NCBI GenBank assembly: GCA_025355875.1
Contig: JANXYV010000036.1
Location: 1-40,877 of the forward strand
Length of the DNA stretch: 40,877 bases
Source: Prolixibacteraceae bacterium
GTDB taxonomy: Bacteria > Bacteroidota > Bacteroidia > Bacteroidales > Prolixibacteraceae
Direction: 5' to 3'
The position numbers were made by a program, and so were the translations under genes. Below are positions 957 to 16,404 of this stretch, in pieces (position 1 is the first letter of the stretch; the number at the start of each line of letters is the position of its first letter). The notes under the pieces are model-generated. The model did no database searches. It saw only the letters and a program-made list of their open reading frames with translations, and was not told the DNA's origin.

Positions 957-2195
957 ATGAGACAATTAAAACTATTAATTACCTTCTTATTATTGAATTT
1001 CATTGCTTTTTCGCAGGTGGCGCAATTTCGCGGCCCTAATCGCGACGGAAAATTTTTGGATTCAGGATTACTGAAAAAATGGCCTGATGCCGGTCCAGAA
1101 TTAGTCCTGAAAGTGGAAGGAATTGGCAAAGGATACTCCTCAGTAGTGGCCACCGATCAGTATATTTTTGCTTCAGGAATGAAAGATACCCTGGATTATT
1201 TGTCGTGTATCGCGGCCGATGGAAAAATAAAATGGCAGGTTCCGTACGGCCGTTCCTGGAAGCAATCTTTTCCTGAAACCCGAAGCACTCCAACCATAGA
1301 AGGTGATCGTGTCTATGTGGTCAGCGGGGTTGGTGAACTGGTTTGTCTGAATGTTTCGGATGGAGTTATTCGCTGGAAAGTGAACGTCGACAAGGATTAT
1401 CAGGCAGAGTGGCACATCTGGGGCGTTTCGGAATCTCCCCTGATTGTGGGTGACCAAGTGATTTGCTCGCCAGGAGGAAAATTAACCTCCATAGTTGCGT
1501 TCGATAAAATGACCGGGAAACTGGTATGGAAAAGTGAATCAGTTGGTGGCCCGCGTTGCTATGTTTCACCAACCATTTATGAATACAAAACTTTCCGGTA
1601 CATTCTGGCTGCAACCGGAACCCATTTAATAGCCCTTGAACCTGCAACCGGGAGAGTTGTCTGGACATTCAAATATTGGGATGGCGAAAAATGGGACCAG
1701 CCCGGATTGATCTGGGCCAATACTCCAATATTTAAAGGACCTGACATTTTCCTTTCGATGGGATACAATTACCGTAACGTGATGCTCACCATGAGTGAAG
1801 ATGGGAAATCGGTTACGGAAAAATGGAGCAACCTGGTTCTCGATAATCACCATCATGGCTTGATTGAACTGGATGGATTTATTTATGGCTCGAACTGGAT
1901 TAGCAATGGAAAAGGTAACTGGGTTTGCATGGACTGGAATTCGGGCGAGACAAAGTACGAAACTGATTGGTTAACCAAAGGAGCAGAAATTTATGCCGAT
2001 GGATTACTATATATTCTGGAAGAAAAAGCGGGTACTGTTGCCTTAATGAAACCGAATTCTCAAAGCTTTGATGTGGTCAGTTCCTTCAAACTGCAGGGTG
2101 GCTCCGGTCCATTCTGGGCTCATCCTTTCGTGGCCAATGGTAAATTGTATTTACGTCATGGCGATGTTCTTTTTGTTTACAACATCAAAGCCTGA
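957..2195 (+). CDS. secreted PQQ-type beta-propeller protein (first tandem copy)
   Basis: The 412-residue product begins with a signal peptide (hydrophobic stretch at about residues 5-18, cleavage near FSQ) followed by FRGPNRDG. The body is built of propeller blades with the PQQ-repeat signature: AxDxxTGKxxW-like strands such as MTGKLVWK, and ATGRVVWT. It is probably periplasmic. The family (BamB/PQQ-like quinoprotein fold) includes true quinoprotein dehydrogenases and non-enzymatic scaffolds. I see no adjacent-cysteine disulfide ring or cytochrome domain of the classical PQQ alcohol dehydrogenases, so PQQ binding is unproven. It is clearly paralogous to the next gene: both share GYSS, SFPETR/TFPETR, and the ending WAHP...GKLYLRHG/GKLFIRHG. 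Confidence 0.9.
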   Translation: MRQLKLLITFLLLNFIAFSQVAQFRGPNRDGKFLDSGLLKKWPDAGPELVLKVEGIGKGYSSVVATDQYIFASGMKDTLDYLSCIAADGKIKWQVPYGRSWKQSFPETRSTPTIEGDRVYVVSGVGELVCLNVSDGVIRWKVNVDKDYQAEWHIWGVSESPLIVGDQVICSPGGKLTSIVAFDKMTGKLVWKSESVGGPRCYVSPTIYEYKTFRYILAATGTHLIALEPATGRVVWTFKYWDGEKWDQPGLIWANTPIFKGPDIFLSMGYNYRNVMLTMSEDGKSVTEKWSNLVLDNHHHGLIELDGFIYGSNWISNGKGNWVCMDWNSGETKYETDWLTKGAEIYADGLLYILEEKAGTVALMKPNSQSFDVVSSFKLQGGSGPFWAHPFVANGKLYLRHGDVLFVYNIKA

Positions 2196-2216
2196 ATCAT
2201 TCAATAGGACTTGAAT

Positions 2217-3458
2217 ATGAAAAGTCTGCCAATATCAATGTTATTAATTCTGATTTCAGCCAGGTTGTTTTCCCAGGATGTGGTTGAATGGCGAGGCCCG
2301 GGCCGGACGGGTACCTATCCTGATCAAAACCTTTTAAAAAGTTGGCCTTCCGGCGGGCCGGAAATTTTACTGGAGTTGAAAAATGTTGGAAATGGATATT
2401 CCTCACCGGTTGTGTATAAAAATATCATCTATATTACCGGGAAAAAAGACAGTCTTGATATGGTAGGTTCATACGAAATGAATGGAACCCGAAAGTGGGA
2501 AACAGCTTATGGACAGTCATGGGCCAGAACATTTCCGGAAACCCGTTGTACACCAACTATTGAGAATGATCGAATCTACCTGGTAAGCGGAATGGGACAA
2601 GTTGTCTGTGTAGATTCAACTTCAGGAAAATTAATCTGGACAGTTGATGCCAATTCAGATTTCAAAGGAGAACCTCATAAATGGGGAATTGCCGAATCTC
2701 TCGCTATATCAGATAGGGCTGTATTTTATGTGACTGGTGGCGAAGAAACATCAGTGATTGCTCTCAGCAAAATGGATGGGAAATTGCTTTGGAAAACCAA
2801 AAGTCTTGGCGGGCCCCGCGCCTATGCTTCGCCGGTGGTTATCGAAAAGGCAGGAATGAAATTACTGTTGGCACAAACTTCCAACGATTTGATAGCTATA
2901 AACATTGAAAATGGCGAAATAGTCTGGAGCTATGACCTGAAACAACATCAGACCGGTAAAATGGGAAAAGGTGCAAACACCAATACTCCACTCTATTACA
3001 ACGATGAAATACTGATTACCAGCGGATATAATCATCCGGCATTCATGCTGAAGCTTTCGCCTGATGGAAAGTCAGTTTCATTAAAATGGACCAATCCCGA
3101 TTTTGATGTTCATTTCGGAGGGGTGGTCAAAATAGGCGAATATCTTTTCGGTTCAAACTGGCAAACCAACAACTCCGGAAACTGGATGTGTCTGGATTGG
3201 CAAACAGGCAAAACCATGTATGAAACGAAATGGTTTAACAAGGGATCCGTCATTTCAGCTGATGGACTTCTATATTGTCTGGAAGAAAAATCTGGCAATC
3301 TGGCAATAGTAAGGCCAAATCCTGAAAAGTTTGAAGTAATTAGTTCAGTGAAGGTTAAAAAAGGTTCGGGACCATATTGGGCTCATCCGGCCATTTTCAA
3401 CGGGAAATTATTTATACGTCATGGAGAAAATCTTGCGGTTTATAACTTGAGAAAATAG
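2217..3458 (+). CDS. secreted PQQ-type beta-propeller protein (second tandem copy)
   Basis: This 413-residue paralogue of the 957 gene lies 21 bases after it. I use ATG 2217 rather than the in-frame TTG at 2211 because an AGGA-like site at 2206-2209 is correctly spaced. A signal peptide (LLILISARLFSQ) precedes WRGPGRTG. Blade repeats include TSGKLIWT, MDGKLLWK and ENGEIVWS. Shared blocks with the upstream copy run along the whole length (GYSSPVV, RTFPETRCTPTIENDRIYLVSG, GSNW, WAHP...RHG), showing tandem duplication followed by divergence. It is predicted periplasmic. Substrate or cofactor is not visible. The next gene begins four bases after its stop, so this is one operon. Confidence 0.9.
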   Translation: MKSLPISMLLILISARLFSQDVVEWRGPGRTGTYPDQNLLKSWPSGGPEILLELKNVGNGYSSPVVYKNIIYITGKKDSLDMVGSYEMNGTRKWETAYGQSWARTFPETRCTPTIENDRIYLVSGMGQVVCVDSTSGKLIWTVDANSDFKGEPHKWGIAESLAISDRAVFYVTGGEETSVIALSKMDGKLLWKTKSLGGPRAYASPVVIEKAGMKLLLAQTSNDLIAINIENGEIVWSYDLKQHQTGKMGKGANTNTPLYYNDEILITSGYNHPAFMLKLSPDGKSVSLKWTNPDFDVHFGGVVKIGEYLFGSNWQTNNSGNWMCLDWQTGKTMYETKWFNKGSVISADGLLYCLEEKSGNLAIVRPNPEKFEVISSVKVKKGSGPYWAHPAIFNGKLFIRHGENLAVYNLRK

Positions 3459-3462
3459 CAAA

Positions 3463-4884
3463 TTGGAAAAGAGAATTAAATATGGCATTTTACTGACAGC
3501 GATCTTTACGCTGCTTCTATTTCTATGGTGGATGTTTCACGATCCGACGAATAAATTTGCCGAGAGCATTCCCGGAGAAGACAAAAAAGGAACCGACTCA
3601 TTAAAGGTTGGTCCGCCGGTAAATATTGGTGAAAACTTTCAGGTTTTCAATACAGAAACCTCAGGTTTAAAAGGAACCTGGACACGATTTCGGGGAGCCG
3701 ATTTCGATAACATTGTAAAAAATTCGGTACCCCTGAAAAACAGTTGGTCGGGTAATGAACCCGAAATCAAATGGTCGGTAGATCTGGGTGAAGGCCACGC
3801 CGGGCCCGCTATTTACGAAGGAAAAGTATATGTGATGGATTACGACGAAGCCACACGATCTGATGCCCTTCGCTGTTTCTCGCTTGAAGGAGGTAAGGAA
3901 CTTTGGAGACGTTCGTATAAAGTTAGCCTGAAACGAAACCATGGAATGTCGCGCACCGTTCCGGCAGTAAATGCTGAATATGTATTGACCATGGGGCCAC
4001 GCTGCCATGTGATGTGTGTCAGACGCGAAACCGGCGATCTGGTCTGGGGACTCGACCTGGTTCAGAAATACAAAACAGAAGTGCCGCTCTGGTTTACCGG
4101 GCAATGTCCGATGATCGACGGCAACAAAGCGATTCTGGCTCCGGGAGGAAGTTCGGTGATGATCGCTGTGGAGCTGTCTACCGGCAAGGTTCTCTGGGAA
4201 ACTCCCAATCCGGGTGGAATTAAGATGTCGCATTCATCCATCATGCCCTGGACCCTGAACGGAAAGAAGATGTACGTTTACAGCGCGGTCGGGGCTGTTT
4301 TGGGAATTTCGGCCGAAGGTGCCGATGAAGGAAAGATTCTCTGGAAATCGACGGCCTGGAACCACGCCGTGGTTGCACCTGCTCCGGTTTGTTTTCCGGA
4401 TGGAAAAATATTCCTGACAGCCGGATACGGTGCCGGAAGCATGGTAATCAAAATAAGTCCTTCGGGAGTTGAATATAAAGTGGAAGTTCTGAAACAATAT
4501 TTACCAAAGGATGGAATGGCTTGTGAACAACAAACTCCGGTGATATTCGACGGAATGATGTTTGCCATTGAACCGAAAGATGCCGGACCTCTCCGGAATC
4601 AGCTCATTTGCGTCAATCCGGACGATGTGAACAAAGTGGTATGGACTTCAGGAAAGGAAAGCCGTTTTGGACTCGGGCCATACCTGATTGCGGATAAAAA
4701 GATGTTTTTGCTAAACGATGAAGGAACGCTTACAATGATCAAACCTGACGGCAAAAAGTATATTCAACTGGCCCAGAAAAAGCTGTTCGACGGTCAGGAT
4801 GCCTGGGCTCCGATGGCCATTGCCGATGGGCGTTTGCTGTTGCGCGATTCGAAAAAGATGTATTGCGTTAATATAAAACAATAA
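3463..4884 (+). CDS. membrane-anchored PQQ-type beta-propeller protein
   Basis: The 473-residue protein appears to start at TTG 3463, four bases after the previous stop. That start gives a positively charged N-terminus and one transmembrane helix (about residues 7-25), so the propeller would face the periplasm on a membrane anchor. The next in-frame Met lies within that helix, which supports the TTG. A charged linker to residue about 70 precedes the propeller opening (TRFRGADFDN). Blade strands include LEGGKELWRR, ETGDLVWG and STGKVLWE. It is more distant from the 957/2217 pair. It is also more cysteine-rich (CHVMCVRR), though without a cluster motif. Function is unknown beyond the fold. Confidence 0.87.
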   Translation: MEKRIKYGILLTAIFTLLLFLWWMFHDPTNKFAESIPGEDKKGTDSLKVGPPVNIGENFQVFNTETSGLKGTWTRFRGADFDNIVKNSVPLKNSWSGNEPEIKWSVDLGEGHAGPAIYEGKVYVMDYDEATRSDALRCFSLEGGKELWRRSYKVSLKRNHGMSRTVPAVNAEYVLTMGPRCHVMCVRRETGDLVWGLDLVQKYKTEVPLWFTGQCPMIDGNKAILAPGGSSVMIAVELSTGKVLWETPNPGGIKMSHSSIMPWTLNGKKMYVYSAVGAVLGISAEGADEGKILWKSTAWNHAVVAPAPVCFPDGKIFLTAGYGAGSMVIKISPSGVEYKVEVLKQYLPKDGMACEQQTPVIFDGMMFAIEPKDAGPLRNQLICVNPDDVNKVVWTSGKESRFGLGPYLIADKKMFLLNDEGTLTMIKPDGKKYIQLAQKKLFDGQDAWAPMAIADGRLLLRDSKKMYCVNIKQ

Positions 4885-4888
4885 AGCG

Positions 4889-5863
4889 ATGAACCGAAAA
4901 CTGATAAATGTTGCATTGATCGTTTTGGCTGTGGCCATTGTTTTTATTATTGGGAAAGATTTTATTGGGAAGAAAGCCGGGAAAAACATTGAAAACCCGT
5001 TCGAATACAATGTGGATGAATTCCGGAAAGTTGATTCGACACAGATTTTATATGCCGAAAAGTCTCATTTTCGCGTGAAAATAAACAGTTGGGCGGGAAT
5101 CGCTTTATCTGATTCGACCATTGTGATTGCTTCGGCAAATGAATTACTTAAATTCAATTATTCGGGAAAACTGGTCTTCAATAAGCAATTGATTGATACG
5201 GCAACATGCCTCGCGATAGACAGCCACCGCCAAATTTGGATTGGCATGATGAACTATGTGGCCTTATACAATCATGAAGGCACTTTAATCAAACGCTGGA
5301 ATTCGTTTGGCGAACGGGCAGTTTTTACTTCCATTGCTGTTCAGGGAGAAAATATATTTATTGCTGATGCCGGAAACCGTATGGTTTATCAGTGTGAGAC
5401 CAAAGGTGAGATTATCCAGAAAATCGGAGAGAAAGATGAACAGAAAGGAATCCCTGGATTCATCATCCCGAGTCCCTATTTTGATGTGGCGTTTGATACC
5501 AATGGCTTTTTGTGGGCAGCCAATACTGGCCGTCATTCGTTCGAGAATTACAATCCGGATGGCTCTTTACGGACATCATGGGGCGTTACAAGTATGAAAA
5601 TTGAGGGTTTCAGCGGTTGCTGCAATCCCGCGCACTTTACAATCATGGATGACAATTCGTTCATTACCAGCGAAAAAGGAATACCACGTATCAAGTTGTA
5701 TGATTCTCATGGTCAATTCACAGGTATTGTCGCGCCCCCGGCTGCGTTTGAAGGTTCATTGGCTCCGGATATTGCGGTAGACAAACAACAACGGGTGGTC
5801 GCTTTGGATTTTGAACGCCAGCAGGTTCGTATTTTTGAAAAGAAAAAGAATGGAAACAACTAG
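4889..5863 (+). CDS. membrane-anchored NHL-type beta-propeller protein
   Basis: The 324-residue protein has one N-terminal transmembrane helix (about residues 7-23) and then a repeat domain with NHL/6-bladed propeller features: GENIFIADAGNRMVYQ, WNSFGERA, and FLWAANTGRHSFENYNPDG. NHL domains usually bind partners or ligands rather than catalyse, although some lyases use the fold. A GCCNP motif near residue 247 contains adjacent cysteines. It starts four bases after the preceding propeller gene and its end overlaps the next gene by 14 bases, so it is translated as part of the same operon. It is predicted to sit on the outer face of the inner membrane beside the Tat-exported iron-sulfur proteins. 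A role as docking subunit is inference. Confidence 0.82.
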   Translation: MNRKLINVALIVLAVAIVFIIGKDFIGKKAGKNIENPFEYNVDEFRKVDSTQILYAEKSHFRVKINSWAGIALSDSTIVIASANELLKFNYSGKLVFNKQLIDTATCLAIDSHRQIWIGMMNYVALYNHEGTLIKRWNSFGERAVFTSIAVQGENIFIADAGNRMVYQCETKGEIIQKIGEKDEQKGIPGFIIPSPYFDVAFDTNGFLWAANTGRHSFENYNPDGSLRTSWGVTSMKIEGFSGCCNPAHFTIMDDNSFITSEKGIPRIKLYDSHGQFTGIVAPPAAFEGSLAPDIAVDKQQRVVALDFERQQVRIFEKKKNGNN

Positions 5864-6053
5864 AAGGGATTTTTTCAGAAAGGCCGCGCAACTGACTTTT
5901 CTATCAGTAATGGTTGGTGGATCAGTATATTTGATAACCGAAAACCGTGTACAGTTGGATACTTGTACTGAAAATAAATTTTGCAAAAAATGTCAGAAAC
6001 TAACCACCTGTTCGTTGGATCAGGCTAAAAATTACCGAAGCAATGAGCGATAA
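5850..6053 (+). CDS. small Tat-signal four-cysteine protein
   Basis: The 67-residue product begins METTRRDFFRKAA, a twin-arginine signal, followed by a hydrophobic stretch to about residue 30. The mature part is only about 35 residues and has four cysteines, Cys39, Cys45, Cys48 and Cys54 (spacing C-x5-C-x2-C-x6-C), enough for one iron-sulfur cluster or a zinc site. The start at 5850 is chosen because the twin-arginine motif begins there; longer in-frame sequence is the tail of the upstream gene read in another frame. It overlaps the NHL gene by 14 bases and the following ferredoxin gene by 11, implying translational coupling. I do not recognise the family. Tat export suggests a cofactor is inserted in the cytosol. 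Confidence 0.72.
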   Translation: METTRRDFFRKAAQLTFLSVMVGGSVYLITENRVQLDTCTENKFCKKCQKLTTCSLDQAKNYRSNER

Positions 6054-6648
6054 AAATGAGCCCAAAAGCATGGAGCGACGGCGGTTTATCCGCACCGGCA
6101 TGCAATCGGTTCTGGCCGTTTCGTTGGGTGGAATTGCCGGCGTTTCTCTCCTTAAATCGACTTCAAAAAAACTGGTATGGCAACTCGACCCGTTTAAATG
6201 TGTGCAATGCGGGCGTTGTGCCACCGAGTGTGTGATGACTCCCTCGGCTGTCAAATGTGTGCATTCTTTCAACTTATGCGGGTATTGCGATTTATGCGGC
6301 GGTTATCTGAAACCCGATGCGAATGCACGCAGTACTGCAGCCGAAAATCAGCTTTGTCCAACTGCTGCCATCAAACGCCAGTATATTGAAGATCCTTATT
6401 TTGAATATGTAATTGATGAAAAACTGTGTATCGGTTGTGCCAAGTGCGTAGCCGGATGTACTTCATTTGGAAATGGTTCATTGCATCTGCAGGTTCGGCA
6501 CGACCGTTGCGAAAACTGCAACGAATGTGCTATTGCAAGGGTTTGTCCTTCAGAGGCTTTTCTGCGAGTTCCTGTTGATACTCCTTATATGATTAAGGGT
6601 GGATTCACGAAAGGCGGAACCAGTAAGGATCAATTGAAGAAAGGATAA
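6043..6648 (+). CDS. Tat-exported 4x[4Fe-4S] ferredoxin, NapG-like
   Basis: The 201-residue protein has a twin-arginine signal (ERRRFIRTG) and a hydrophobic segment to about residue 37. It carries seventeen cysteines arranged as CVQCGRCATEC (53-63), LCGYCDLC with a later CP (79-105), CIGCAKCVAGC (129-139) and CENCNEC with CP (156-168), enough for about four [4Fe-4S] clusters as in the NapG/MauM/DmsB group. NapG works with NapH to pass quinol electrons to periplasmic acceptors, and a NapH-like gene follows after an inserted ORF6N gene. Start ATG 6043 overlaps the small Tat gene. It probably shuttles electrons on the periplasmic face of the membrane. Its partner enzyme is not evident. Confidence 0.87.
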   Translation: MSDKNEPKSMERRRFIRTGMQSVLAVSLGGIAGVSLLKSTSKKLVWQLDPFKCVQCGRCATECVMTPSAVKCVHSFNLCGYCDLCGGYLKPDANARSTAAENQLCPTAAIKRQYIEDPYFEYVIDEKLCIGCAKCVAGCTSFGNGSLHLQVRHDRCENCNECAIARVCPSEAFLRVPVDTPYMIKGGFTKGGTSKDQLKKG

Positions 6649-6898: not shown

Positions 6899-7420
6899 AT
6901 GCAAATCGAAAAAATTCAATCAAAGATCTACGAAATCCAGGGGCAAAAGGTCATGCTGGATTTTGATCTTGCAGAACTTTATGAGGTAGAAACAAGGATT
7001 TTAAATCAGGCAGTAAAACGAAATATTGATCTTTTCCCGGAGGATTTCATGTTTCAGCTTTCACAAAGCGAATGGGAAAGTATGTCATCACAAATTGTGA
7101 TGACATACCCGACAAAGCGGCCTAAAACTTCTTCGCCTTTTGCATTTACCGAACATGGTGTAACAATGCTTGCCAATGTTTTGAGGAGTAAAAAGGCCAG
7201 ACAAACAAGTATTGCCATCGTGCGAGCATTTATTGCTATCAAAAAGTTTGTTGTAAGTTACAAGGAGCTGGCTGAAAGTTTGCAACTACTTGAAAACAAA
7301 TACGACCAGCAGTTCAAGAACGTGTACGATGCAATCAACTTCCTGCTCCAAAAGGATAATCAGGATACGGAGCAAAAACAGCGCAAACGAATTGGTTTTA
7401 AAAGTGATGAAACAACTTAA
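6899..7420 (+). CDS. ORF6N-domain protein (KilA-N/Bro-type, putative DNA-binding)
   Basis: The 173-residue protein carries the ORF6N domain (PF10543) over about residues 5-95: KIYEIQGQKVMLDFDLAELY, then ETRILNQAVKRN, FPEDFMFQLS and FAFTEHGVTMLANVLRS. A helical coiled tail follows and ends in the common RKRIGF motif. Such proteins are related to phage antirepressor/KilA-N proteins and occur alone in Bacteroidota genomes. DNA binding is likely; targets are unknown. The length is that of an intact family member. It sits between the NapG-like and NapH-like genes, whose relatives normally adjoin, so it looks inserted. Its stop overlaps the NapH-like start by 14 bases, which would couple their translation. 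A perfect 29-bp palindrome lies within it. Confidence 0.88.
   Translation: MQIEKIQSKIYEIQGQKVMLDFDLAELYEVETRILNQAVKRNIDLFPEDFMFQLSQSEWESMSSQIVMTYPTKRPKTSSPFAFTEHGVTMLANVLRSKKARQTSIAIVRAFIAIKKFVVSYKELAESLQLLENKYDQQFKNVYDAINFLLQKDNQDTEQKQRKRIGFKSDETT
7080..7108. promoter_or_regulatory. 29-bp perfect palindrome inside the ORF6N coding sequence
   Basis: The left arm GTATGTCATCACAA (7080-7093) and right arm TTGTGATGACATAC (7095-7108) pair completely around A7094. The codons read SMSSQIVMTYP, a segment where ORF6N proteins differ most from one another. The core ATCACAAATTGTGAT is the reverse complement of the core at 6799-6813. It may be a DNA site recognised by the protein itself, a hairpin in the mRNA, or a site of rearrangement. 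Confidence 0.6.
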
Positions 7421-8675
7421 ACGATATTTTTTACTGATTTCCATTATAGTCTTCGGGGCAATCCAATCGTTTGCGGCCGATGCAAAACAGCGCTTTCCAA
7501 AGCCGGAATTCGATACTGGTTACCAGCAACCGCACACTACGGCTCCATCACCCCGGTTTTTACTTCTTGAATACCTGGATGTATTGGTATTGCTTGCTGT
7601 TCTTGCGCTGGTCACCTGGATGGTACTGAAAAAACGTTCGCGTCAAGGGGTCTTCTGGACTTCGGTCTTTTCCCTGCTTTATTTCGGATTCTACCGGGAA
7701 GGTTGTATTTGTTCCATCGGATCCATTCAAAATGTGGTTCTCGGAATAGTCGATCCGACCTATGTCCTGCCACTCACCACATTGCTTTTCTTCTTGTTGC
7801 CACTTGTTTTTTCACTTTTCTTTGGACGCGTATTTTGTGGCGGTGCCTGCCCGCTTGGAGCCATTCAGGATATTGTAGCCATTCGGCCCATCGAATTGCC
7901 CAAATGGATTCAGAAGATCCTGGGACTGATTCCCTATTTGTATCTCGGTCTGGCCGTTTTGTACGTAGCGACCAAATCCGAGTTTATTATCTGCCGGTAC
8001 GATCCGTTTGTTGGCTTCTTCCGGTTCGAAGCACCTTTCCATATGTTGATTCTGGGAATATTATTCCTCGCCATCGGCGTATTTGTTGCCCGGCCCTATT
8101 GCCGGTTCTTCTGTCCTTACGGCGTTCTGCTGGGATGGATGTCGAAGTTTTCATCCAAACACATGACCATTACACCAGCCGCCTGCATTCAATGTAAATT
8201 GTGTTCCAATTCTTGTCCTTTTGGAGCGATTGATGAACCGGTTGCCGAAACCGGGAAACGCCGCAGCAACGTGAACCGACTGATGACCTATTTTGTGCTA
8301 CTTCCGTTGTGGATTGGAATTGGCGGATTTGCAGGTTCGATGATGCATGTGCCACTTTCCCGATTTAATAAGACAGTATACCTGGCCGAGCAAATTGTTG
8401 AACATCCTGAAGTGAAAAATGATGCTAAAAATATTGATGTCCGCACCTTTATGAGCTCCGGAAAATCAACCACACAACTGGTTTCGGAGGCTGATCAGAT
8501 TCGCCGCCAATTCTATCTCGGAGGATGGCTTCTTGGTGGTTTTATGGGATTAATTATTGGCTCCAGCCTGATTAATCTGTCGACCTTCCGAAAACGGGAA
8601 GACTGGGAGCCAAACAAAACGAATTGCCTGAGCTGTGCACGGTGCATGGATTATTGTCCGGTGAAGAAAGAATAA
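7407..8675 (+). CDS. NapH-like polytopic membrane [4Fe-4S] protein
   Basis: The 422-residue protein starts at ATG 7407, giving a signal-like N-terminus (MKQLKRYFLL, then ISIIVFGAIQSFAAD). Several transmembrane helices follow (about 52-73, 83-95, 118-140, 172-187, 212-229, 292-312, 370-390). Hallmarks of the NapH/NosR/RdxA group are present: two CxxxCP motifs (FCGGACPLG, Cys144/148; YCRFFCPYG, Cys232/236) and two ferredoxin motifs, Cys260-263-266-270 and Cys407-410-413-417. REGCICSIGS near residue 97 resembles NosR-type sequences. Family members move electrons between membrane quinone and iron-sulfur partners, here presumably the NapG-like ferredoxin. Its start overlaps the ORF6N stop by 14 bases and no clear Shine-Dalgarno site is seen. 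Confidence 0.88.
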   Translation: MKQLKRYFLLISIIVFGAIQSFAADAKQRFPKPEFDTGYQQPHTTAPSPRFLLLEYLDVLVLLAVLALVTWMVLKKRSRQGVFWTSVFSLLYFGFYREGCICSIGSIQNVVLGIVDPTYVLPLTTLLFFLLPLVFSLFFGRVFCGGACPLGAIQDIVAIRPIELPKWIQKILGLIPYLYLGLAVLYVATKSEFIICRYDPFVGFFRFEAPFHMLILGILFLAIGVFVARPYCRFFCPYGVLLGWMSKFSSKHMTITPAACIQCKLCSNSCPFGAIDEPVAETGKRRSNVNRLMTYFVLLPLWIGIGGFAGSMMHVPLSRFNKTVYLAEQIVEHPEVKNDAKNIDVRTFMSSGKSTTQLVSEADQIRRQFYLGGWLLGGFMGLIIGSSLINLSTFRKREDWEPNKTNCLSCARCMDYCPVKKE

Positions 8676-8820: not shown

Positions 8821-10677
8821 ATGAACGATAAAATTCAACTGGCGCAGCGCATTGCACGGATCGCTGCAGGATTCGCAATGATGATGGCCGTTTTGCTAAT
8901 TGCCAACTTTGTGCAAACAAGGCTGAACAAGCCAATTGACAATAAAACCATTCCGGCGCTGGTCAAACGGTTGAGCGAAAGTCCGGGCGACGAAGCATTG
9001 AAAACCGAAATCCGGGCCTTCGACCTGATGGCCCGCAAAGCTTATTTTACCAGTCAGTGGCAAATCCGGACAGGCAGTTACCTCATGTTCCTTGGAATTA
9101 TTATCTCCATTTTGGCTGTTCGGTACATTCTGTCTGCCAGATCGAAATTAAACGAAATCGACGGTATCGAAAAGGAAAACGGACTAGATAAACTGGCGGC
9201 TCAAAAGTGGGTCATTTATGTGGGTTCAGGATTAATTGTACTTGCACTTGTTTCCGGATTTCTGGCGTCGAATTCGCTCAAAGACTACAAGGTGAACGAA
9301 AATATGGTAATTCAGGAAGAAAAACCCACAGAGACTGTTTCTGCGCCTGTGAATCAGGAACAGCCTTCTGCTTTGGCAGATCAAACTACTGAACCTGAAC
9401 TTCCTCCAACGAATCAAAAATCAGTACTTGCCAGTGCTCCTAATGTCAAACCTGTTGAAACCCTTGCAGCACCAGAACCTGCCGCTCTAGCTGCCAAGCC
9501 AGGCAGTTTGCCAACAAAGGCCGAGTTGAAAACCAACTATCCGTTTTTCCGCGGACCTGAAGGAAATGGAGTTGCTTATCAGAAAAATACGCCAACCGAT
9601 TGGAATGGTACTGCCGGAAAAAATGTGATCTGGAAGGTGAAAGTTCCGAAGTCTGGGTTCAGTTCTCCGATTATTTGGGGAGATCGACTGTTTGTAACCG
9701 GTGCGGATGCCCAATCGCGGGTAGTTTATTGCTACGATAAAAACTCCGGAAAACTTTTATGGGAAGCGGCTGCTGACAATATTGAAGGATCGCCGGCAAA
9801 AATGCCTAAAGTGACTACCGATACTGGTTTGGCAGCTCCAACCATGGCAACCGACGGAAAAGCTGTGTTTGCAATCTTTGCCACAGGCGACGTCATTGCG
9901 CTTGAAATGAACGGAAAACGTTTGTGGGCGCGTAACCTGGGAATGCCGGACAATCACTACGGACATGGCTCATCGCTGATTGTTTATAAAGACAAACTTC
10001 TGATTCAATACGATACCAACAAATCAGGAAAATTGATGGCTTTGGACACTCAAACCGGGAAGATTGTTTGGGAGACTGCCCGTAGCTCCAAAATATCGTG
10101 GTCGTCACCAATTCTGGTGAATACAGGAAATCGCACGGAGTTGATTTTAACAACCAATCCAAATGTCAATGGCTATGACCCGCAAACGGGAAAGGAACTT
10201 TGGAACATTGCCTGTCTTTCAGGCGAAGTTGGTCCGTCAGCCGGCTATACCGATGGAATGGTGTTTGCCGCCAACGAATACGCCAAACTGGTTGGTATTA
10301 AAATTGGCGGCGGATCTCCTGAAATTGCCTGGGAAGCTGACGAATTTTTACCTGAAGTCTCAAGCCCACTGGCTGTGAATGGATTGCTATACGTGGCAAC
10401 AACCTACGGCGTGCTGGCATGCTACGACGCCAAAACCGGCACAAAAAACTGGAGTCAGGAATATGGCGATTCCTTTTATTCATCACCGGTTTATGCCGAT
10501 GGAAAGGTATACATTACTGATATGACCGGAAAAACGCACATTGTAAAAGCCATCAAAGATTATCAGTTAGTCGGGACTCCGGAATTGGGCGAAAAAGCGG
10601 TTTGCTCTCCTGTTTTTCAGGATGGAAGGGCGTATCTGCGAGGCATGAATAATTTGTATTGTTTGGGAATAAAGTGA
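8821..10677 (+). CDS. multi-pass membrane-anchored PQQ-type beta-propeller protein
   Basis: The 618-residue protein has three predicted transmembrane helices (about 13-32, 85-104, 130-150). A flexible linker rich in Pro, Ala, Glu and Gln (about 160-235) follows, then a propeller opening with FFRGPEGNG near 242. Blade strands include NSGKLLWE, MNGKRLWA, QTGKIVWE, QTGKELWN and KTGTKNWS. I take ATG 8821; an in-frame GTG at 8797 lies in a repeat element and is less likely. The linker suggests a propeller held at a distance from the membrane. It follows the NapH-like gene by 145 bases and probably serves the same periplasmic redox module. This fold alone does not establish PQQ binding. Confidence 0.88.
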   Translation: MNDKIQLAQRIARIAAGFAMMMAVLLIANFVQTRLNKPIDNKTIPALVKRLSESPGDEALKTEIRAFDLMARKAYFTSQWQIRTGSYLMFLGIIISILAVRYILSARSKLNEIDGIEKENGLDKLAAQKWVIYVGSGLIVLALVSGFLASNSLKDYKVNENMVIQEEKPTETVSAPVNQEQPSALADQTTEPELPPTNQKSVLASAPNVKPVETLAAPEPAALAAKPGSLPTKAELKTNYPFFRGPEGNGVAYQKNTPTDWNGTAGKNVIWKVKVPKSGFSSPIIWGDRLFVTGADAQSRVVYCYDKNSGKLLWEAAADNIEGSPAKMPKVTTDTGLAAPTMATDGKAVFAIFATGDVIALEMNGKRLWARNLGMPDNHYGHGSSLIVYKDKLLIQYDTNKSGKLMALDTQTGKIVWETARSSKISWSSPILVNTGNRTELILTTNPNVNGYDPQTGKELWNIACLSGEVGPSAGYTDGMVFAANEYAKLVGIKIGGGSPEIAWEADEFLPEVSSPLAVNGLLYVATTYGVLACYDAKTGTKNWSQEYGDSFYSSPVYADGKVYITDMTGKTHIVKAIKDYQLVGTPELGEKAVCSPVFQDGRAYLRGMNNLYCLGIK

Positions 10678-10798: not shown

Positions 10799-10857
10799 AA
10801 TATTGAAATTTATTTAAATTGAAATTTTGAGTTCTCATATATTAATAAACCTGTGTT

Positions 10858-11790
10858 ATGATAATTTTTGTAGATAAGAAATACATCAAAGCTCCTTTTG
10901 TAAATGAAAGTGAGATTGAAAATGTTGTTATAAATAACTACGAATACCTTTTTGGACCAAGTTCAATTTATCTACCTAAGGCATTAATTAAAACCGGTGA
11001 TGGTGGCGGTACAATTCCTGATGGCTTTGTTATTGATTTGGCTTCAAGAAAATGGTATTTGGTTGAGGCTGAATTAATACAACATAGCGTTTGGTCTCAC
11101 ATAGCACCGCAGGTAACAAAACAGATGATTGCATCGCAACAGATATTCACAAAAAAGATACTTGAGGATTTGACTGTTGAGATTTATCAAAAGGATGATA
11201 CTGCGAAGGAAAAATTCAGTGAACTTGGGATAAAGGAGATAAATATTCGCAAAATACTTTCGGAGATTCTTGAAAAAGAACCAATAGTTGGAGTTCCTAT
11301 TGATTCAATTTCAAATGATTTAAGAGATTGGGCTAGGACATTAAAATACAATGTGAAGCTTTGGGTTATTTCAAAATACGTTGAGTTTAATAATCCTACA
11401 AACATTGCGTATGAATTTCCAGAAGAATTTAAACCAGAACTGGATACTGAAGAAGATACTTTAGAAACAAAAGAGACTATTGGAAAAATTTCACGTTCAG
11501 ACATAAGCATTCTTGATTTGCTAAACTCTAAGCTATTAGCTGTAAACCAAAAGTTAACAATGATTTATAAACCCAGAAACGGCGGTTCGCAGAAAAAATA
11601 TATTGCAACAGTTCTTGAGGATGGAACATTGAATTTACTTGATCAGAAGTATCCAAGTCCTAGTTATGCAGCTCTTGCAGGAATTCAGAATGCAGGTAGT
11701 GATAGAAAAACTGTAAACGGCTGGACTTCGTGGAAAACTGAGGATGGAATTATTATAGCTGAATTACGGGATAAGGTGAGTTTAGAATAG
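10858..11790 (+). CDS. putative PD-(D/E)XK-like nuclease with C-terminal RAMA/DUF4357 domain
   Basis: The 310-residue protein has an N-terminal region like DUF91/Mrr-type nucleases: TIPDGFVIDL (Asp55), then WYLVEAEL (Glu70, Glu72) and QVTKQMIASQ. The usual catalytic lysine of E-x-K is Glu72 here, so activity is uncertain. The C-terminal 80 residues (YIATVLEDGTLNLL, SPSYAALAG, NGWTSWKTEDG) match the RAMA/DUF4357 domain, associated with restriction and modified-DNA recognition. Its composition is clearly more AT-rich than neighbouring genes, suggesting transfer. It sits alone, without a methyltransferase or helicase beside it, between redox genes. It may be a one-gene DNA-targeting defence protein or an inactive relic. 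The fold assignment is inference from motifs. Confidence 0.7.
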   Translation: MIIFVDKKYIKAPFVNESEIENVVINNYEYLFGPSSIYLPKALIKTGDGGGTIPDGFVIDLASRKWYLVEAELIQHSVWSHIAPQVTKQMIASQQIFTKKILEDLTVEIYQKDDTAKEKFSELGIKEINIRKILSEILEKEPIVGVPIDSISNDLRDWARTLKYNVKLWVISKYVEFNNPTNIAYEFPEEFKPELDTEEDTLETKETIGKISRSDISILDLLNSKLLAVNQKLTMIYKPRNGGSQKKYIATVLEDGTLNLLDQKYPSPSYAALAGIQNAGSDRKTVNGWTSWKTEDGIIIAELRDKVSLE

Positions 11791-11843
11791 AATTAATCTT
11801 GTTTTGACCGTACCTACATTCATTAAAATTACTTGAATATCAC

Positions 11844-14201
11844 GTGAATAAGGAAACGAACATACAACAAACAATTGATCAAATCATCGCTAAAAAAGGA
11901 ACGGCGGGGAAATCCGTCATTCCGATTTTGCAGGCAATTCAAAGTACCTTCAATTATCTTCCGGAGGAATCTCTGAAATTCGTTTGCGAAAAGACAGAAA
12001 TCACTCCGGAACAAATTGTCGGAGTAGCTTCGTTTTATTCGCAATTCAGGATGCAGCCTGTTGGCGAACACATTATCAAAGTGTGTGTCGGAACCGCTTG
12101 CCATGTGAAAGGCGCGGGACAGGTTTATGATGCTTTCCGCCGCCATTTTAACCTGACGGGACACGAAGAAACTGACGCTTCCCGAAGATATACCATCGAG
12201 AAGGTATCCTGCCTCGGATGCTGTACTTTGGCTCCGGTGGTCCAGATTGATGAAATCACCTACGGACATGTTGCTTCGGATAAAGTTGGAAATGTTTTAG
12301 CCGATTTCGAAAAGCATGCCGGACTTTCAGGAGCAAGAAAGGGACTTTTCCGGAATGTGGATGGGCAGGAAATTCAGGGAGAAATCCGTATTGGTCTTGG
12401 TTCTTGCTGTGTGGCCTCAGGAAGTGAAGATGTAAAAAAAGCTGTTGAAGAGACGATTGCTGACACTGGCATCAAAATCAGCCTGAAAAATGTGGGTTGC
12501 GTAGGCATGTGCCATCAGGTTCCACTGGTCGAGATTATTCCTCACAACGAAAAACCAACACTCTATGCCAAGGTGAAACCGGAGGATATTGCCGGAATAA
12601 TTGCCAGCCACTTCAAACCTCTGGGTACATTCAGCATGCTTAAAAACAGCGTGTATAAGTTTTTTGAAAGTGTGCAGACTGACACGGTTTGGGATGGGGT
12701 GAAACAGTATTCGATTGATGCCCGCGAAAAACAGGTTACCGATTTTTTAGATCGTCAGGTTCCGATCGCTACCCAGTACCGTGGAATTATCAATCCGCTC
12801 GACATTGAGGAATACAAGGCACACGAAGGTTTTGCTGCGCTAAAAACCTGCCTGACTGAACTAAGTTCCGAAGAAATTATTAAGACCATTAAAGATAGCG
12901 GATTACGCGGTCGCGGAGGGGCAGGTTTCCCCACCGGACAGAAGTGGAGTCTGGTTGCCGGAAATCAGTCAGATGTGAAATACCTGATTGTGAATGGCGA
13001 TGAAGGCGATCCTGGCGCATTTATGGACCGGATGCTGCTCGAATCGTATCCATACCGCGTGATTGAGGGCGCCGTTATTGCAGCCAAAGCGGTAGGCGCC
13101 ACACAAGGATTTTTCTATATCCGGGCTGAATATCCGCTGGCCGTGAAACGCATCCGACAGGCGCTGGTTTATTGCCGCGAGAAGAATTACCTCGGTGAAA
13201 ACATTCTGGGAAGCGGATTTTCATTCGACCTGACTATTTACGAAGGAGCTGGGGCATTTGTCTGCGGAGAAGAAACTGCAATGATGCAATCCATCGAAGG
13301 ACAACGGGGATTTCCACGCATTCGCCCACCTTTTCCTGCGGCGAGTGGTTTGTGGAAACAACCCACGCTGATCAACAATACCGAAACTTTTGCCCAAGTC
13401 TCGTACATCATCCGCGAAGGATCGGGCAAGTTTGCTGCAATCGGACGTGGAACCAGCCGCGGCACCAAAGTCTTTGCTTTGGCCGGGAAAGTGAATCGCG
13501 GCGGATTGATTGAAGTACCCATGGGAATTACCGTTCGCCAGATTGTAGAAGAAATTGGAGGCGGAGTCCAGAATGGAAAGAAATTCAAGGCGGTGCAAAT
13601 TGGCGGACCTTCCGGAGGTTGTGTCCCGGCTGAATTGTACGATACGCCTATCGATTACGAATCGCTGCACGAAGTGGGTGCCATGATGGGCTCCGGTGGA
13701 TTGGTGGTTCTGGATGAAACCGATTGCATGGTGGATATTGCCCATTTTTTTCTGTCGTTTACCCAAAATGAATCCTGCGGAAAATGTACGTTCTGCCGTA
13801 TTGGAACCAAACGAATGCTCGACATCCTGACTAAAATTACAACAGGGAAAGGTACCTTGAAAGACATGGATGAACTGGAATACCTGGCAGGCTGGACCAA
13901 AAAAGGAAGTTTATGCGGTTTGGGAAAATCGGCTCCGAATCCAATCCTGTCAACGTTGAAATATTTCAGGGAAGAATATATTGCACACATCAACGGCAAA
14001 TGCCCGGGAGGCAAATGTCAGAGTATGATTAAATACCAGATCAACGATTTGTGTATCGGCTGCACCAAATGTGCGCAGAAATGCCCAACTGACGCCATTC
14101 TGTTCAAGCCACATGAAAAGCACGAAGTCATTACCGACCTCTGCATCAAATGCGACGCCTGCAGGCAGGTTTGCCCGGTTGATGCGGTGGAGATCGTTTA
14201 A
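11844..14201 (+). CDS. fused NuoE-NuoF-type NADH-binding flavoprotein (HydC-HydB-like)
   Basis: The 785-residue protein starts at GTG 11844. A NuoE-like [2Fe-2S] domain (about 1-160) has Cys81, Cys86, Cys123 and Cys127. A second thioredoxin-like [2Fe-2S] domain (about 180-258) has Cys188/189, Cys219 and Cys223. The NuoF part follows, with the FMN loop GLRGRGGAGFPTG (353-365), NAD region NGDEGDPGAFMDR, an SLBB-like stretch and the CGKCTFCRIG cluster. Two [4Fe-4S] motifs end it (CIGCTKCAQKCP, CIKCDACRQVCP). This is the architecture of HydB, here with HydC fused in front, the NAD(H)/flavin core of electron-bifurcating hydrogenases and some formate dehydrogenases. No hydrogenase or formate dehydrogenase catalytic subunit is in the window. 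The partner is probably the flavoprotein at 14842. Confidence 0.92.
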   Translation: MNKETNIQQTIDQIIAKKGTAGKSVIPILQAIQSTFNYLPEESLKFVCEKTEITPEQIVGVASFYSQFRMQPVGEHIIKVCVGTACHVKGAGQVYDAFRRHFNLTGHEETDASRRYTIEKVSCLGCCTLAPVVQIDEITYGHVASDKVGNVLADFEKHAGLSGARKGLFRNVDGQEIQGEIRIGLGSCCVASGSEDVKKAVEETIADTGIKISLKNVGCVGMCHQVPLVEIIPHNEKPTLYAKVKPEDIAGIIASHFKPLGTFSMLKNSVYKFFESVQTDTVWDGVKQYSIDAREKQVTDFLDRQVPIATQYRGIINPLDIEEYKAHEGFAALKTCLTELSSEEIIKTIKDSGLRGRGGAGFPTGQKWSLVAGNQSDVKYLIVNGDEGDPGAFMDRMLLESYPYRVIEGAVIAAKAVGATQGFFYIRAEYPLAVKRIRQALVYCREKNYLGENILGSGFSFDLTIYEGAGAFVCGEETAMMQSIEGQRGFPRIRPPFPAASGLWKQPTLINNTETFAQVSYIIREGSGKFAAIGRGTSRGTKVFALAGKVNRGGLIEVPMGITVRQIVEEIGGGVQNGKKFKAVQIGGPSGGCVPAELYDTPIDYESLHEVGAMMGSGGLVVLDETDCMVDIAHFFLSFTQNESCGKCTFCRIGTKRMLDILTKITTGKGTLKDMDELEYLAGWTKKGSLCGLGKSAPNPILSTLKYFREEYIAHINGKCPGGKCQSMIKYQINDLCIGCTKCAQKCPTDAILFKPHEKHEVITDLCIKCDACRQVCPVDAVEIV

Positions 14202-14206
14202 AGTTT

Positions 14207-14248
14207 AAAGTTTCAGGTTTCAGGTTGCGGGATGCGGGTTGCGGGTTT
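14207..14248. repeat. left G-rich flank of the S23-type gene unit
   Basis: Low-complexity sequence of the form TTTCAGGTTGCGGG with repeats of GCGGGTT begins right after the NuoF-like stop. Its reverse complement (AACCCGCAACCCGC) matches the right flank at 14802-14814 at 12 of 13 positions. It brackets the S23-type gene. Confidence 0.6.
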
Positions 14249-14348
14249 TCGGTCGCGAAGATTGTAGTTTAAATGATCAAAATAGTTTACTATTAAAGTA
14301 TTAAAAAGTATTACGGAGGATGCCTATAAATGATTCTTTAAAAAAAAC

Positions 14349-14415
14349 CATAACTCGAATCCCGGAACCCGAAACAGTTCTATTAACCCGAAACCCGAAT
14401 CTCGCAACGCGTAAC
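14349..14415. repeat. C-rich AACCCGAA-type repeats before the S23-type gene
   Basis: Several degenerate copies of AACCCGAA, ACTCGAAT and CTCGCAAC occur just upstream of ATG 14426, in the same orientation as the right flank and opposite to the left flank. Confidence 0.55.
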
Positions 14416-14425
14416 AATAAAAGAC

Positions 14426-14803
14426 ATGAACAGCTACAAAGATCTTGATATTTACAATTTAGCCTACAGATTGGCAATAGATGTTCATAAAATGACTATG
14501 ACATTGCCAAAATATGAGCTTTATGAACAAGGAAGTCAGGTTCGCAGATCATCAAAAAGCATCAAGGACAATATAGCTGAAGGCTTTGGCCGGAGAAGAT
14601 ATAAGGATGAATTCGTTCGTTTTCTGGTTTTTGCGCATTCTTCCTGTGATGAAGCAATTTCGCAATTGACGATGATCAATGAAATTTATTTTGAAAATAA
14701 AGATTTAAACAGTTTACTTGAGGAGTATGAAGTTTTGGGTGCTAAAATCAATAAGTTTATCCAATATGTCGAAGAAAATTGGAAATCTAACCGCAATCCA
14801 TAA
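14426..14803 (+). CDS. four-helix-bundle (S23-type, 23S rRNA IVP family) protein
   Basis: The 125-residue protein matches the four-helix-bundle family (TIGR02436/PF05635): YKDLDIYNLAYRLAIDVH, the conserved QVRRSSKSIKDNIAEGFGRR, then FLVFAHSSCDEAISQL and a C-terminal helix. The family was named from proteins encoded in intervening sequences of 23S rRNA, but in Bacteroidota it occurs often as isolated genes; its function is not established. Here it is wedged between two flavoprotein genes that probably work together. C-rich and G-rich low-complexity repeats in inverted orientation surround it, so it looks like an inserted unit. Lower GC than its neighbours supports that. It is not near any rRNA gene in this window. 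Confidence 0.9.
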   Translation: MNSYKDLDIYNLAYRLAIDVHKMTMTLPKYELYEQGSQVRRSSKSIKDNIAEGFGRRRYKDEFVRFLVFAHSSCDEAISQLTMINEIYFENKDLNSLLEEYEVLGAKINKFIQYVEENWKSNRNP

Positions 14804-14832
14804 CCCGCAACTCGAATCACGTAACTCGCAAC
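14802..14832. repeat. right C-rich flank of the S23-type gene unit
   Basis: AACCCGCAACTCG, then further ACTCGCAAC-type repeats, starts at the S23-type stop codon and ends nine bases before the next ATG. It is the inverted counterpart of the left flank at 14207-14248. Confidence 0.6.
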
Positions 14833-14841
14833 AATTTAAAA

Positions 14842-16404
14842 ATGACAAAATTAACTATAAATAATCATCCTATTGAGGTTCAGACCGGTACTTCGGTCTG
14901 GCAGGCAGCACAATCTGCTGGAATCAATATTCCAACGATGTGTTACTTGGAAGAAACTGAACATTTCACCTCATGCATGATTTGCCTGGTGAAAGACGCC
15001 AAAAACGGACGATTTTTTGCGTCCTGTTCTACCCCGGTATTTGAAGGACAGAATGTCATTACCAATGATGAGGAAACCATCGAATCACGGAAAGCAGCGC
15101 TCGAATTGCTGTTGAGCGAACATGTCGGCGATTGCGAAGCCCCATGCCAGTTGGTTTGTCCGGCACACATGAATATTCCGCTGATGAACCGCCTCATTGC
15201 CAAAGGTGATTTTGCCAAAGCTTTGGAAGTGGCTAAACGCGACATAGCTTTACCTTCCATTCTCGGACGAATTTGTCCGGCTCCCTGCGAGGCCGGTTGC
15301 CGCCGCAAACAGGTAGACGAAGCTGTTTCGATTTGTTTGCTGAAACGATTTGTTGGCGACGAAGATTTGAAAAGTGAAAGTCCTTATCAGCCGCCAAAGG
15401 CCGAACTTTCAGGCAAAAAAGTTGCCATAATTGGATCCGGTCCAGCCGGATTAGCCGCTGCATATTACCTTCAGCAAAAAGGTCATCAGTCGGTAATTTT
15501 CGAAAAAAATAGCAAGGCTGGTGGCGAGTTGCTTCATATTGATCAGGAAATTTTACCAGCTGAAATCATTGATCAGGAGGTGACTCAAATTGTAGCAACC
15601 GGTGTTCAGATTCGCCTGAATGAAACGATTGATGATAGGCGTTTTGCTGAATTGCAAAGTGAATTTGATGTTATTTTGCTCGCTAGCGGAACGATTCCGG
15701 AAGGAAGTTCTGCATTCGGACTCAAGACGACCAAGGCTGGAATTTCTGTTGATAAAACCAGCTATATGACTTCAAATCCCAAAGTTTTTGCGGTTGGAAA
15801 CTCGCTGCGTGCGTCGAAACTCGCCGTGCGTTCAGTTGGTCAGGGAAAGGAGGTGGCAACTGTCATCGATCATTTCTTCAGAAATTCAGAAGTTACCGGA
15901 TTTCCAGAGAGATTCAATTCGAAATTCGGGAGATTGGCTGAAACTGAGTTTATTCAGTACCAAAAAGATTCAGAAGCCGCTCCACGCCAACAAGCAGATC
16001 ATTCAGGATTTTCCAAAGAAGCTGCCATTCGTGAAGCAAAACGCTGCATGCACTGCGATTGCCGCAACCCCGAATCCTGTGTATTGCGAGAACTATCCGA
16101 CCGATATCATGCCGTTCAGAAACGTTTCCAAAGCGAAGAACGTTTCAAGGTTGAAAAATTTATTCACCGTGAAGGCATTGTTTATGAACCCAATAAGTGC
16201 ATCAAATGTGGCATCTGCATTCGTTTGACCAGGCAACATCAGGAAGAATTTGGATTTACGTTTATTGGTCGTGGATTTGATGTGAAGGTAGGCGTTCCGT
16301 TCAACGAAAGTATCCAGAAAGGACTCGAAAAGACAGCCAAAATCGTTGCAATTGCTTGTCCAACGGGAGCATTGGCCATGTTTGAAACTGAGGAACAGAT
16401 TTGA
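14842..16404 (+). CDS. 2Fe-2S / GltD-like FAD iron-sulfur flavoprotein
   Basis: The 520-residue protein begins with a plant-type/NuoG-like [2Fe-2S] domain (Cys34, 45, 48, 62). A His/Cys cluster segment follows (His94, Cys98, 102, 106) and a GltD/Fer4_20 motif (Cys142, 146, 150). The FAD Rossmann motif is VAIIGSGPAGLAAAYYL (192-208), closed by KVFAVGN (311-317). GltD and NfnB carry a second, NAD(P)-binding Rossmann domain between these points. Only about 30 residues separate LLASG from KVFAVGN here, so it seems missing. The C-terminus has cysteines 399, 402, 404, 410 and 450, 453, 456, 503. It probably exchanges electrons with the NuoEF-like protein, which would supply the NAD(H) site. The acceptor, a ferredoxin or other partner, is unknown. 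Confidence 0.87.
   Translation: MTKLTINNHPIEVQTGTSVWQAAQSAGINIPTMCYLEETEHFTSCMICLVKDAKNGRFFASCSTPVFEGQNVITNDEETIESRKAALELLLSEHVGDCEAPCQLVCPAHMNIPLMNRLIAKGDFAKALEVAKRDIALPSILGRICPAPCEAGCRRKQVDEAVSICLLKRFVGDEDLKSESPYQPPKAELSGKKVAIIGSGPAGLAAAYYLQQKGHQSVIFEKNSKAGGELLHIDQEILPAEIIDQEVTQIVATGVQIRLNETIDDRRFAELQSEFDVILLASGTIPEGSSAFGLKTTKAGISVDKTSYMTSNPKVFAVGNSLRASKLAVRSVGQGKEVATVIDHFFRNSEVTGFPERFNSKFGRLAETEFIQYQKDSEAAPRQQADHSGFSKEAAIREAKRCMHCDCRNPESCVLRELSDRYHAVQKRFQSEERFKVEKFIHREGIVYEPNKCIKCGICIRLTRQHQEEFGFTFIGRGFDVKVGVPFNESIQKGLEKTAKIVAIACPTGALAMFETEEQI

Follow-up and report, generated by a model that had tools for sequence, protein, structure and literature searches.

A stretch of 40,877 nucleotides from a Prolixibacteraceae bacterium (GenBank assembly GCA_025355875.1, contig JANXYV010000036.1, positions 1 to 40,877 of the forward strand; hereafter the window) carries a conserved set of genes in which the core of an enzyme of electron-bifurcating type is coded together with membrane and periplasmic iron-sulfur proteins and several propellers. 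By its sequence BfuBC unites in one chain BfuB and BfuC, the core of the electron-bifurcating Bfu (HydABC/Stn) family, and its partner GltDx looks like a BfuA of the Stn type that has been worn from a substrate site to an iron-sulfur wire. We see an even chance that the gene products form a single relay of electrons across the membrane, in the order NADH/ferredoxin, BfuBC, GltDx, NapH-like protein, NapG-like protein and a complex of NHL and other propellers, with outward flow the likelier direction. The genes concerned, with those that interrupt and follow them, are listed here.

957 to 2195, forward strand: PQQa, a BamB/PQQ_2-like propeller with a Sec-type N-terminus
2211 to 3458, forward strand: PQQb, a PQQ_2/BamB-like propeller and paralogue of PQQa (44% identical)
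3463 to 4884, forward strand: PQQc, an N-terminally anchored PQQ_2/BamB-like propeller
4889 to 5863, forward strand: NHL, an anchored NHL propeller
5850 to 6053, forward strand: TatC4, 67 residues with a twin-arginine (RR) signal and the pattern C-x5-C-x2-C-x5-C
6043 to 6648, forward strand: NapG-like ferredoxin of the twin-arginine translocation (Tat) type, with 16 invariant cysteines
6899 to 7420, forward strand: open reading frame (ORF) with an ORF6N domain, an apparent insertion outside the system
7407 to 8675, forward strand: NapH-like polytopic ferredoxin with Fer4_5 and two 4Fe-4S motifs
8821 to 10677, forward strand: PQQd, membrane segments and a PQQ_2/BamB-like propeller
10858 to 11790, forward strand: ORF with a RAMA domain, an apparent insertion outside the system
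11844 to 14201, forward strand: BfuBC (HydBE), a BfuC-BfuB fusion composed of NuoE, HydB/NuoF and 2x[4Fe-4S]
14426 to 14803, forward strand: 23S_rRNA_IVP ORF, an apparent insertion outside the system
14842 to 16404, forward strand: GltDx, BfuA-like, with Fer2 (2Fe-2S), Fer4_20, a flavin adenine dinucleotide (FAD) Rossmann domain and a C-terminal 4Fe-4S
16529 to 19900, forward strand: GH18/deacetylase/GT2 fusion gene, an apparent insertion
19956 to 21059, forward strand: PQQe, a small BamB-like propeller
21209 to 22507, forward strand: GT4 glycosyltransferase, by family assignment
22534 to 23199, forward strand: ABC ATPase, by family assignment
23841 to 27074, forward strand: FtsX/MacB-type permease of 1077 residues

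Ten of these genes had been picked out in a sequence-only reading of the window, and a check of ORFs and families confirms all ten at their positions on the forward strand. That reading ended the set at 16404, which is too small; PQQe, GT4, ABC and FtsX usually follow, and the system extends to about 27074. It had also taken the breaks in the gene row for insertions, and here the comparison agrees with it. Of 55 related loci (L009-L063, not every one of which spans each site), 5 have a match to the ORF6N ORF, none to the RAMA ORF and 10 to the 23S_rRNA_IVP ORF; with matches so few, these three look like lineage-specific insertions. The GH18/deacetylase/GT2 gene, matched in one of the 55, likewise looks like an insertion.

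How constant is the association of these genes? A measure independent of the choice of loci by GltDx comes from 119 genomes sampled across the order, which represent 119 genera and include the window's own. NHL is found in 19 of the 119 and the NapG-like protein in the identical 19; the hypergeometric value for this overlap is 2e-22, which is no true P since the genomes are related. Short-type matches to the GltDx profile occur in 16 genomes, all of them among the 19; most of these matches span the length of the profile, that of G323 is split into two pieces and that of G412 is confined to the first part. BLAST adds GltDx in two further NHL genomes, G324 (locus L102) and G390 (L105), and G359 is the third NHL genome without a short-type match. 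In all, 50 of the 119 genomes have some match to the GltDx profile, those beyond the short type being open frames of 1083–1268 residues that span just its first half to two thirds. The sequence-only reading had staked the idea of a single system on co-occurrence in related genomes, and with NHL and NapG in the same 19 genomes and the gene order conserved the idea passes.

The set reaches well beyond the order. The same gene order recurs in three phyla, Bacteroidota, the KSB1 phylum and Acidobacteriota, and acidobacterium G480 has it complete as PQQb-PQQc-NHL-NapG-NapH-PQQd-BfuBC-GltDx-PQQe-GT4-ABC-FtsX, with BfuBC as a single unbroken tblastn match. NHL is found in 17 of 82 genomes of the KSB1 phylum and in 7 of 247 from the phylum to which the acidobacterium G003 belongs. 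Across the phylum of the window, 296 genomes yield it once, in the genome of the window itself. The genomes from which the searches started are included in these figures, and the number of candidates scored in each genome was limited. Loci are also present in the cultured relatives Maribellus, Mariniphaga and Sunxiuqinia.

Neighbourhoods were scored about NHL in 70 loci that carry a GCCNP-bearing NHL, with duplicates merged by motif segment and only the same strand considered. The denominators are the loci with enough flanking DNA; the loci are interrelated and many were entered via GltDx. Where the called ORF lacked the motif the match was excluded; L062 is among these, although the motif is present there and NHL was missed by a greedy choice of ORF. 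PQQc lies upstream of NHL in 25/26 loci and PQQa/b in 16/22. NapG follows NHL in 63/64, and NapH is present in 62/64, one of the two misses (L099) being recovered by tblastn. Further downstream are PQQd (58/62), BfuBC (38/39, the sole miss, L075, having BfuBC on another contig, L054), GltDx (32/32), PQQe (29/31) and GT4 (25/30). Scoring about 73 distinct GltDx, again in loci with enough DNA, gives PQQe in 41/47, GT4 in 33/41, ABC in 27/36 and FtsX in 26/35. The 55 loci L009-L063 were collected via GltDx and are thus biased towards it. GT4, ABC and FtsX are also present in the acidobacterial locus L124, and in L075 FtsX lies directly upstream of PQQc.

In the cytosolic core, BfuBC as a single ORF passes the Pfam models Complex1_51K, NADH_4Fe-4S, Fer4_21 and 2Fe-2S_thioredx, with SLBB just below its cut-off (26.2 versus 27 bits); we take these Pfam domains as equivalent to the InterPro domains that define the Bfu family. 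It has a flavin mononucleotide (FMN) domain and the cysteine sets for clusters C1, B5, B1 and B3/B4, and its closest chains in the PDB are 9n5u_B, 8oh5_B and 9bov_B, of which 8oh5 is taken to be Stn because its chain C has the 1172 residues of StnC. In the published definition BfuB comprises FMN/51K, SLBB, 4Fe-4S and C-terminal 2x[4Fe-4S] domains and BfuC a thioredoxin-like 2Fe-2S domain (PMC9304861). The B2 ligands C438, H525, C531 and C536 of 7t2r_B, in the numbering of the NiFe enzyme, align to C628, H715, C720 and C725 of BfuBC, while the variable C476 aligns to a threonine; the B2 histidine is described as missing from non-bifurcating homologues (PMC9304861). Thus BfuBC has the His/Cys ligands of the family at B2. 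The H/C motif is present in 57 of 64 BfuBC ORFs of at least 500 residues (L110, L113 and L114 being the same records as L051, L042 and L047), two of the seven misses being shortened ORFs (L076, L109), and both B2 patterns occur jointly in 51 of the 64. The HydBC-like, NAD-linked core of the sequence-only reading is present as a HydBC-type fusion, but it is not a plain one, having the ligand set of those Bfu cores that bifurcate electrons. BfuB/BfuC domains and cluster ligands are shared with StnABC/Nfn-Bfu (type 1), from which the protein differs in that BfuB and BfuC are fused and are coded with membrane and periplasmic partners.

GltDx shows what has been kept and what lost. It aligns to 9bov_A, 8oh5_C and 9n5u_A, and like StnABC it has the 2Fe-2S and Fer4_20 domains and, in most genomes, the FAD domain. 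Fer2_4 is above its cut-off and the C-terminal Fer4_Nqo3 just below (24.8 versus 27 bits), with the cluster cysteines conserved, so that the 2Fe-2S and 4Fe-4S ferredoxin domains of a BfuA are present. The nearly invariant K168 aligns to K170 of StnC, which ligates cluster C7 (PMC10482914). In contrast to StnABC, this BfuA has 520 residues against 963–1178; it lacks the part beyond about residue 700 and, within the aligned region, some 150 residues covering the domain of the GGGNTAMD nucleotide motif, so that the NADP-binding subdomain of the Nfn-Bfu/StnABC type is missing. In StnC the GltD domain is described as binding NADPH and feeding StnAB, its FAD not being the bifurcating flavin (PMC10482914). 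The nucleotide motif is lost from 60 of 63 GltDx ORFs of at least 450 residues; the three that keep it (L062, L099, L101) are all acidobacterial, and the acidobacterial L096 is without it. NADP-less forms separate from the NADP-bearing acidobacterial forms in a tree of GltDx, but the node has a support of 0.1, so a single loss of the subdomain is not established.

In three genomes the FAD domain has gone as well, with the iron-sulfur parts kept. The GltDx frames of G324 (L102, 16797–17768), G412 (L103, 8968–10068) and G390 (L105, 17253–18305) are 323–366 residues long and match only residues 1–193 at most together with 357–515. The FAD motif pattern is missing from 5 of 76 GltDx ORFs, among which L010 and L104 are full-length. 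These FAD-less forms strengthen the reading of GltDx as a wire, and they remove contact between the FAD and NapH as a necessary step of the mechanism, which we have dropped. Of the GltD-like flavoprotein described earlier, the 2Fe-2S/GltD-like protein is confirmed, but without its NADP-binding subdomain and, in the three genomes, without an FAD site.

On the other side of the membrane, the 16 invariant cysteines of the NapG-like protein give room for four [4Fe-4S] clusters; the RR signals of the periplasmic proteins were read from sequence. A Tat multi-cluster ferredoxin beside a polytopic Fer4_5 ferredoxin is the arrangement of NapG/NapH, and the same likeness extends to NosG/NosH and MauM/MauN. 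The pair differs from NapG/NapH in being coded with a Bfu core and in failing to reach the curated models, for which the scores are given below. TatC4 is present in 43 of 56 NHL-NapG intervals, three of which are records counted twice. The NHL chain of L102 itself combines an RR-type N-terminus with a cysteine-rich C-terminal tail, CSTCDVDC, both resembling TatC4, and is apparently a fusion of the two.

NHL contains the motif F-x-G-C-C-N-P at residues 241–247, which is present in 23/23 aligned rows and 13/13 further-aligned rows, and E-K-x3-R-x-K at 262–269 (the final lysine is a cysteine in L102). The model (predicted local distance difference test, pLDDT, 89) has the fold of an ordinary NHL propeller, shared with TRIM2 and the sensor domain of PknD; these differ from NHL, with its invariant F-x-G-C-C-N-P, conserved E-K-x3-R, N-terminal anchor and redox neighbourhood. 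The CC motif precedes an inner strand, a place that in NHL propellers would lie by the central channel. The vicinal cysteine pair beside the conserved Lys/Arg would be the likely redox or catalytic site of an NHL/TatC4 unit.

The tandem propellers noted from the sequence are present as described, with the correction that just PQQa and PQQb are close paralogues; PQQc, PQQd and PQQe are distant. In fold the AlphaFold2 model of PQQc (pLDDT 88) resembles BamB/PQQ-type propellers, matching BamB at rank 1 and tetrathionate hydrolase (7cqy) at rank 8. Unlike BamB, the propellers here lie far below the cut-off of the BamB equivalog model (TIGR03300, 29.9–136.7 versus 285.2 bits) and are coded with redox proteins. 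They are also far below the model for dehydrogenases dependent on pyrroloquinoline quinone (PQQ; TIGR03075, 19.7–74.3 versus 480.05 bits). A quinoprotein reading is weakened by finding PqqE above its cut-off in 0/19 NHL genomes, but equally in 0/14 control genomes; the propellers are probably PQQ-free, though cells might still take PQQ up. Window 240–317 holds what is left of the C-terminus of a further propeller (50% to PQQa across 24 residues), with an isochorismatase-family gene downstream of it at 343–906. One copy has apparently dropped out of the tandem array.

These components can be assembled into a relay. At its cytosolic end the FMN of BfuBC would be the point of electron exchange with both NAD(H) and ferredoxin. 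GltDx, no longer binding NADP(H), would act as a wire and not as a substrate site, and would give single electrons to, or receive them from, the NapH-like polyferredoxin. In the periplasm the four-cluster NapG-like protein would link NapH to the NHL/TatC4 unit, which the BamB-like propellers would hold. With outward flow, a reduction in the periplasm would be fed with electrons near –400 mV by confurcation from NADH and reduced ferredoxin, and GT4, ABC and FtsX would probably make and move an envelope molecule that this reduction serves. We infer the GltDx-NapH contact, the direction, the CC site as end-point and the role of GT4/ABC/FtsX. Family scans recognise no periplasmic dehydrogenase or reductase among the cluster proteins. 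Outward flow is favoured because no dehydrogenase was recognised there and because confurcation would give electrons of such low potential, the value being that proposed for another Bfu module (PMC9304861). The earlier idea of one chain from cytosolic NAD(H) to periplasmic propellers thus survives as one conserved gene set, but the set is larger, its core is of the bifurcating type and the chain itself is still a proposal.

A more specific scheme is offered tentatively, and we think it somewhat unlikely to be right as a whole. It would be a machine of a new class, in which a Bfu core has its third substrate outside the inner membrane. NADH and ferredoxin would push low-potential electrons through a bare iron-sulfur wire, from which the NADP site was lost first and in some genomes the FAD site, and through the membrane polyferredoxin to the vicinal-cysteine site of NHL, for a reduction coupled to the synthesis and export of an envelope glycan or glycolipid.

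The relay could instead run inward, although we regard this as unlikely. A periplasmic substrate would be oxidised at the NHL/propeller unit, and its electrons would pass by NapG, NapH and GltDx to BfuBC for bifurcation to NAD+ and ferredoxin. Reversibility is described for Bfu enzymes (PMC9304861), dehydrogenases are found among the PQQ-type propeller folds (7wmk, rank 43 for the PQQc model), and the lack of a recognised periplasmic reductase in the cluster suits this direction. Yet bifurcation would need a donor near –400 mV, probably rare in the periplasm, and the 19 NHL genomes have no PqqE above cut-off, a result without a positive control. Moreover, the NapGH and NosGH relays run outward.

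Rather less probable is an NADH/ferredoxin:menaquinone oxidoreductase, in which NapH would pass electrons to quinone and the periplasmic proteins would be structural or regulatory. NapH-like proteins meet quinones in other systems. Nuo-Bfu complexes have also been proposed to reduce menaquinone (PMC9304861), but such an enzyme leaves unexplained the four-cluster Tat ferredoxin that shares the 19 genomes of NHL, the invariant CC motif and why the set contains no pump subunits.

Several observations weigh against a single relay. PQQc and NHL occur in G574 (one contig of 5.13 Mb with some masked stretches) and in G522 (where NHL sits at a contig end), and in neither was NapG found. G005, from outside the 119-genome sample, has GltDx with no NHL match; in G006 GltDx adjoins a heme operon and BfuBC is on a separate contig; L107 has an ORF of 991 residues after PQQd and no BfuBC by tblastn, with the GltDx of that genome on another contig. 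TatC4 was not found in 13 of the 56 NHL-NapG intervals, nor PQQd downstream of NHL in four acidobacterial loci (L098-L101), and PQQe, GT4, ABC and FtsX are absent from several loci, all four being missing from L036, L052, L054, L056 and L062. The NapH-like protein is under the curated NapH cut-off (TIGR02163, 48.1 versus 213.05 bits) and there is no NapG model among the matches listed for the NapG-like protein. Weaker PqqE matches occur in 17/19 NHL genomes and 14/14 controls, and electron transfer, the complex and its direction are things that we infer from sequence. We allow only a slight chance that two systems, an envelope system of propellers, GT4, ABC and FtsX and a Bfu enzyme, merely travel together: G574, G522 and G005 would fit this, as would BfuBC-GltDx or GltDx on another contig in G002 and G006, but both halves are still present in G002 and G006, the order NapG-NapH-BfuBC-GltDx recurs across three phyla, and in the sample of 119 the short-type GltDx matches are confined to NHL genomes.

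Other features of the loci may be recorded. The BfuBC-GltDx junction (window 14201–14842) repeatedly takes in small unrelated genes across lineages, and is thus an insertion hot spot. It contains a 23S_rRNA_IVP gene in L009-L011, L028, L034, L036, L037, L048, L058 and L061; X6, a protein of 125–134 residues that we take to be GxxExxY-like, in L025 and L031; and X1, presumably SGNH-hydrolase-like, in L028, L032, L033, L038, L039, L041, L053, L055 and L060. In five of the 55 loci, all close relatives (L014, L017, L018, L019, L022), genes presumed to be for heme biosynthesis lie directly upstream of GltDx. A functional link between the heme operon and GltDx was not adopted, since in G006 the rest of the cluster is on another contig and the arrangement looks like a rearrangement. 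In one acidobacterium (L062/L125) a squalene-hopene-cyclase-like gene, a GTPase gene and GT4 follow the cluster, and then a further gene; if, as we assume, these include a CobW-type GTPase and a selA-like gene, the neighbours hint at a possible lipid or selenium link.

Two genomes of the KSB1 phylum have an ArsF/ArsG-family pair close to the cluster or to the cytosolic half of it (L054, 14418–16118; L077, 7507–9815), accompanied by a gene for a cysteine desulfurase (NifS-like) near L052/L077 and L054. A route through Ars proteins or thiols was rejected: ArsG is present in 69/119 genomes of the order with no association (11/19 NHL genomes) and was not found in the genome of the window. The other KSB1-phylum loci, 15 in number and in several cases short, show no match to ArsF-ArsG or to the desulfurase, and these were rejected as parts of the system. 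Downstream in the window, three genes at 28061–28867, 29030–31660 and 36716–38194 have no visible relation to the cluster. We take them to be DUF1349-like, GH3-like and, in its first half, DUF1080-like, for which oxidative use of glycosides is possible. Promoter-like sites number 24 against 28.4 in shuffled sequence, and terminator-like sites 29 against 17.3 (standard deviation 5.2), the latter on both strands and mostly within genes; no conclusion was drawn from either.

How does the set relate to what has been described? The core has the domains and ligands of the Bfu family and lacks the NADP subdomain of Nfn-Bfu; the periplasmic wiring is the new part. Listings from searches of open-licence papers show no description of the gene set. 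A search for terms in the main text of PMC9304861 finds no mention of NapH, propeller, periplasm or GltD; that paper leaves 17 BfuB clades without assigned function, and one of these may contain the gene set without naming it. For the Bfu enzymes described there, the third substrate is met either in the cytosol or at the pool of quinone (PMC9304861). If our reading is correct, coupling such a core to an iron-sulfur chain in the periplasm would be a new use of bifurcated electrons, spent across a membrane, and propellers that have so far been annotated merely as BamB-like would gain a role. With the conservation of the set, the CC motif and the steps by which NADP and FAD sites were lost, this can be tested in Maribellus, Mariniphaga and Sunxiuqinia.

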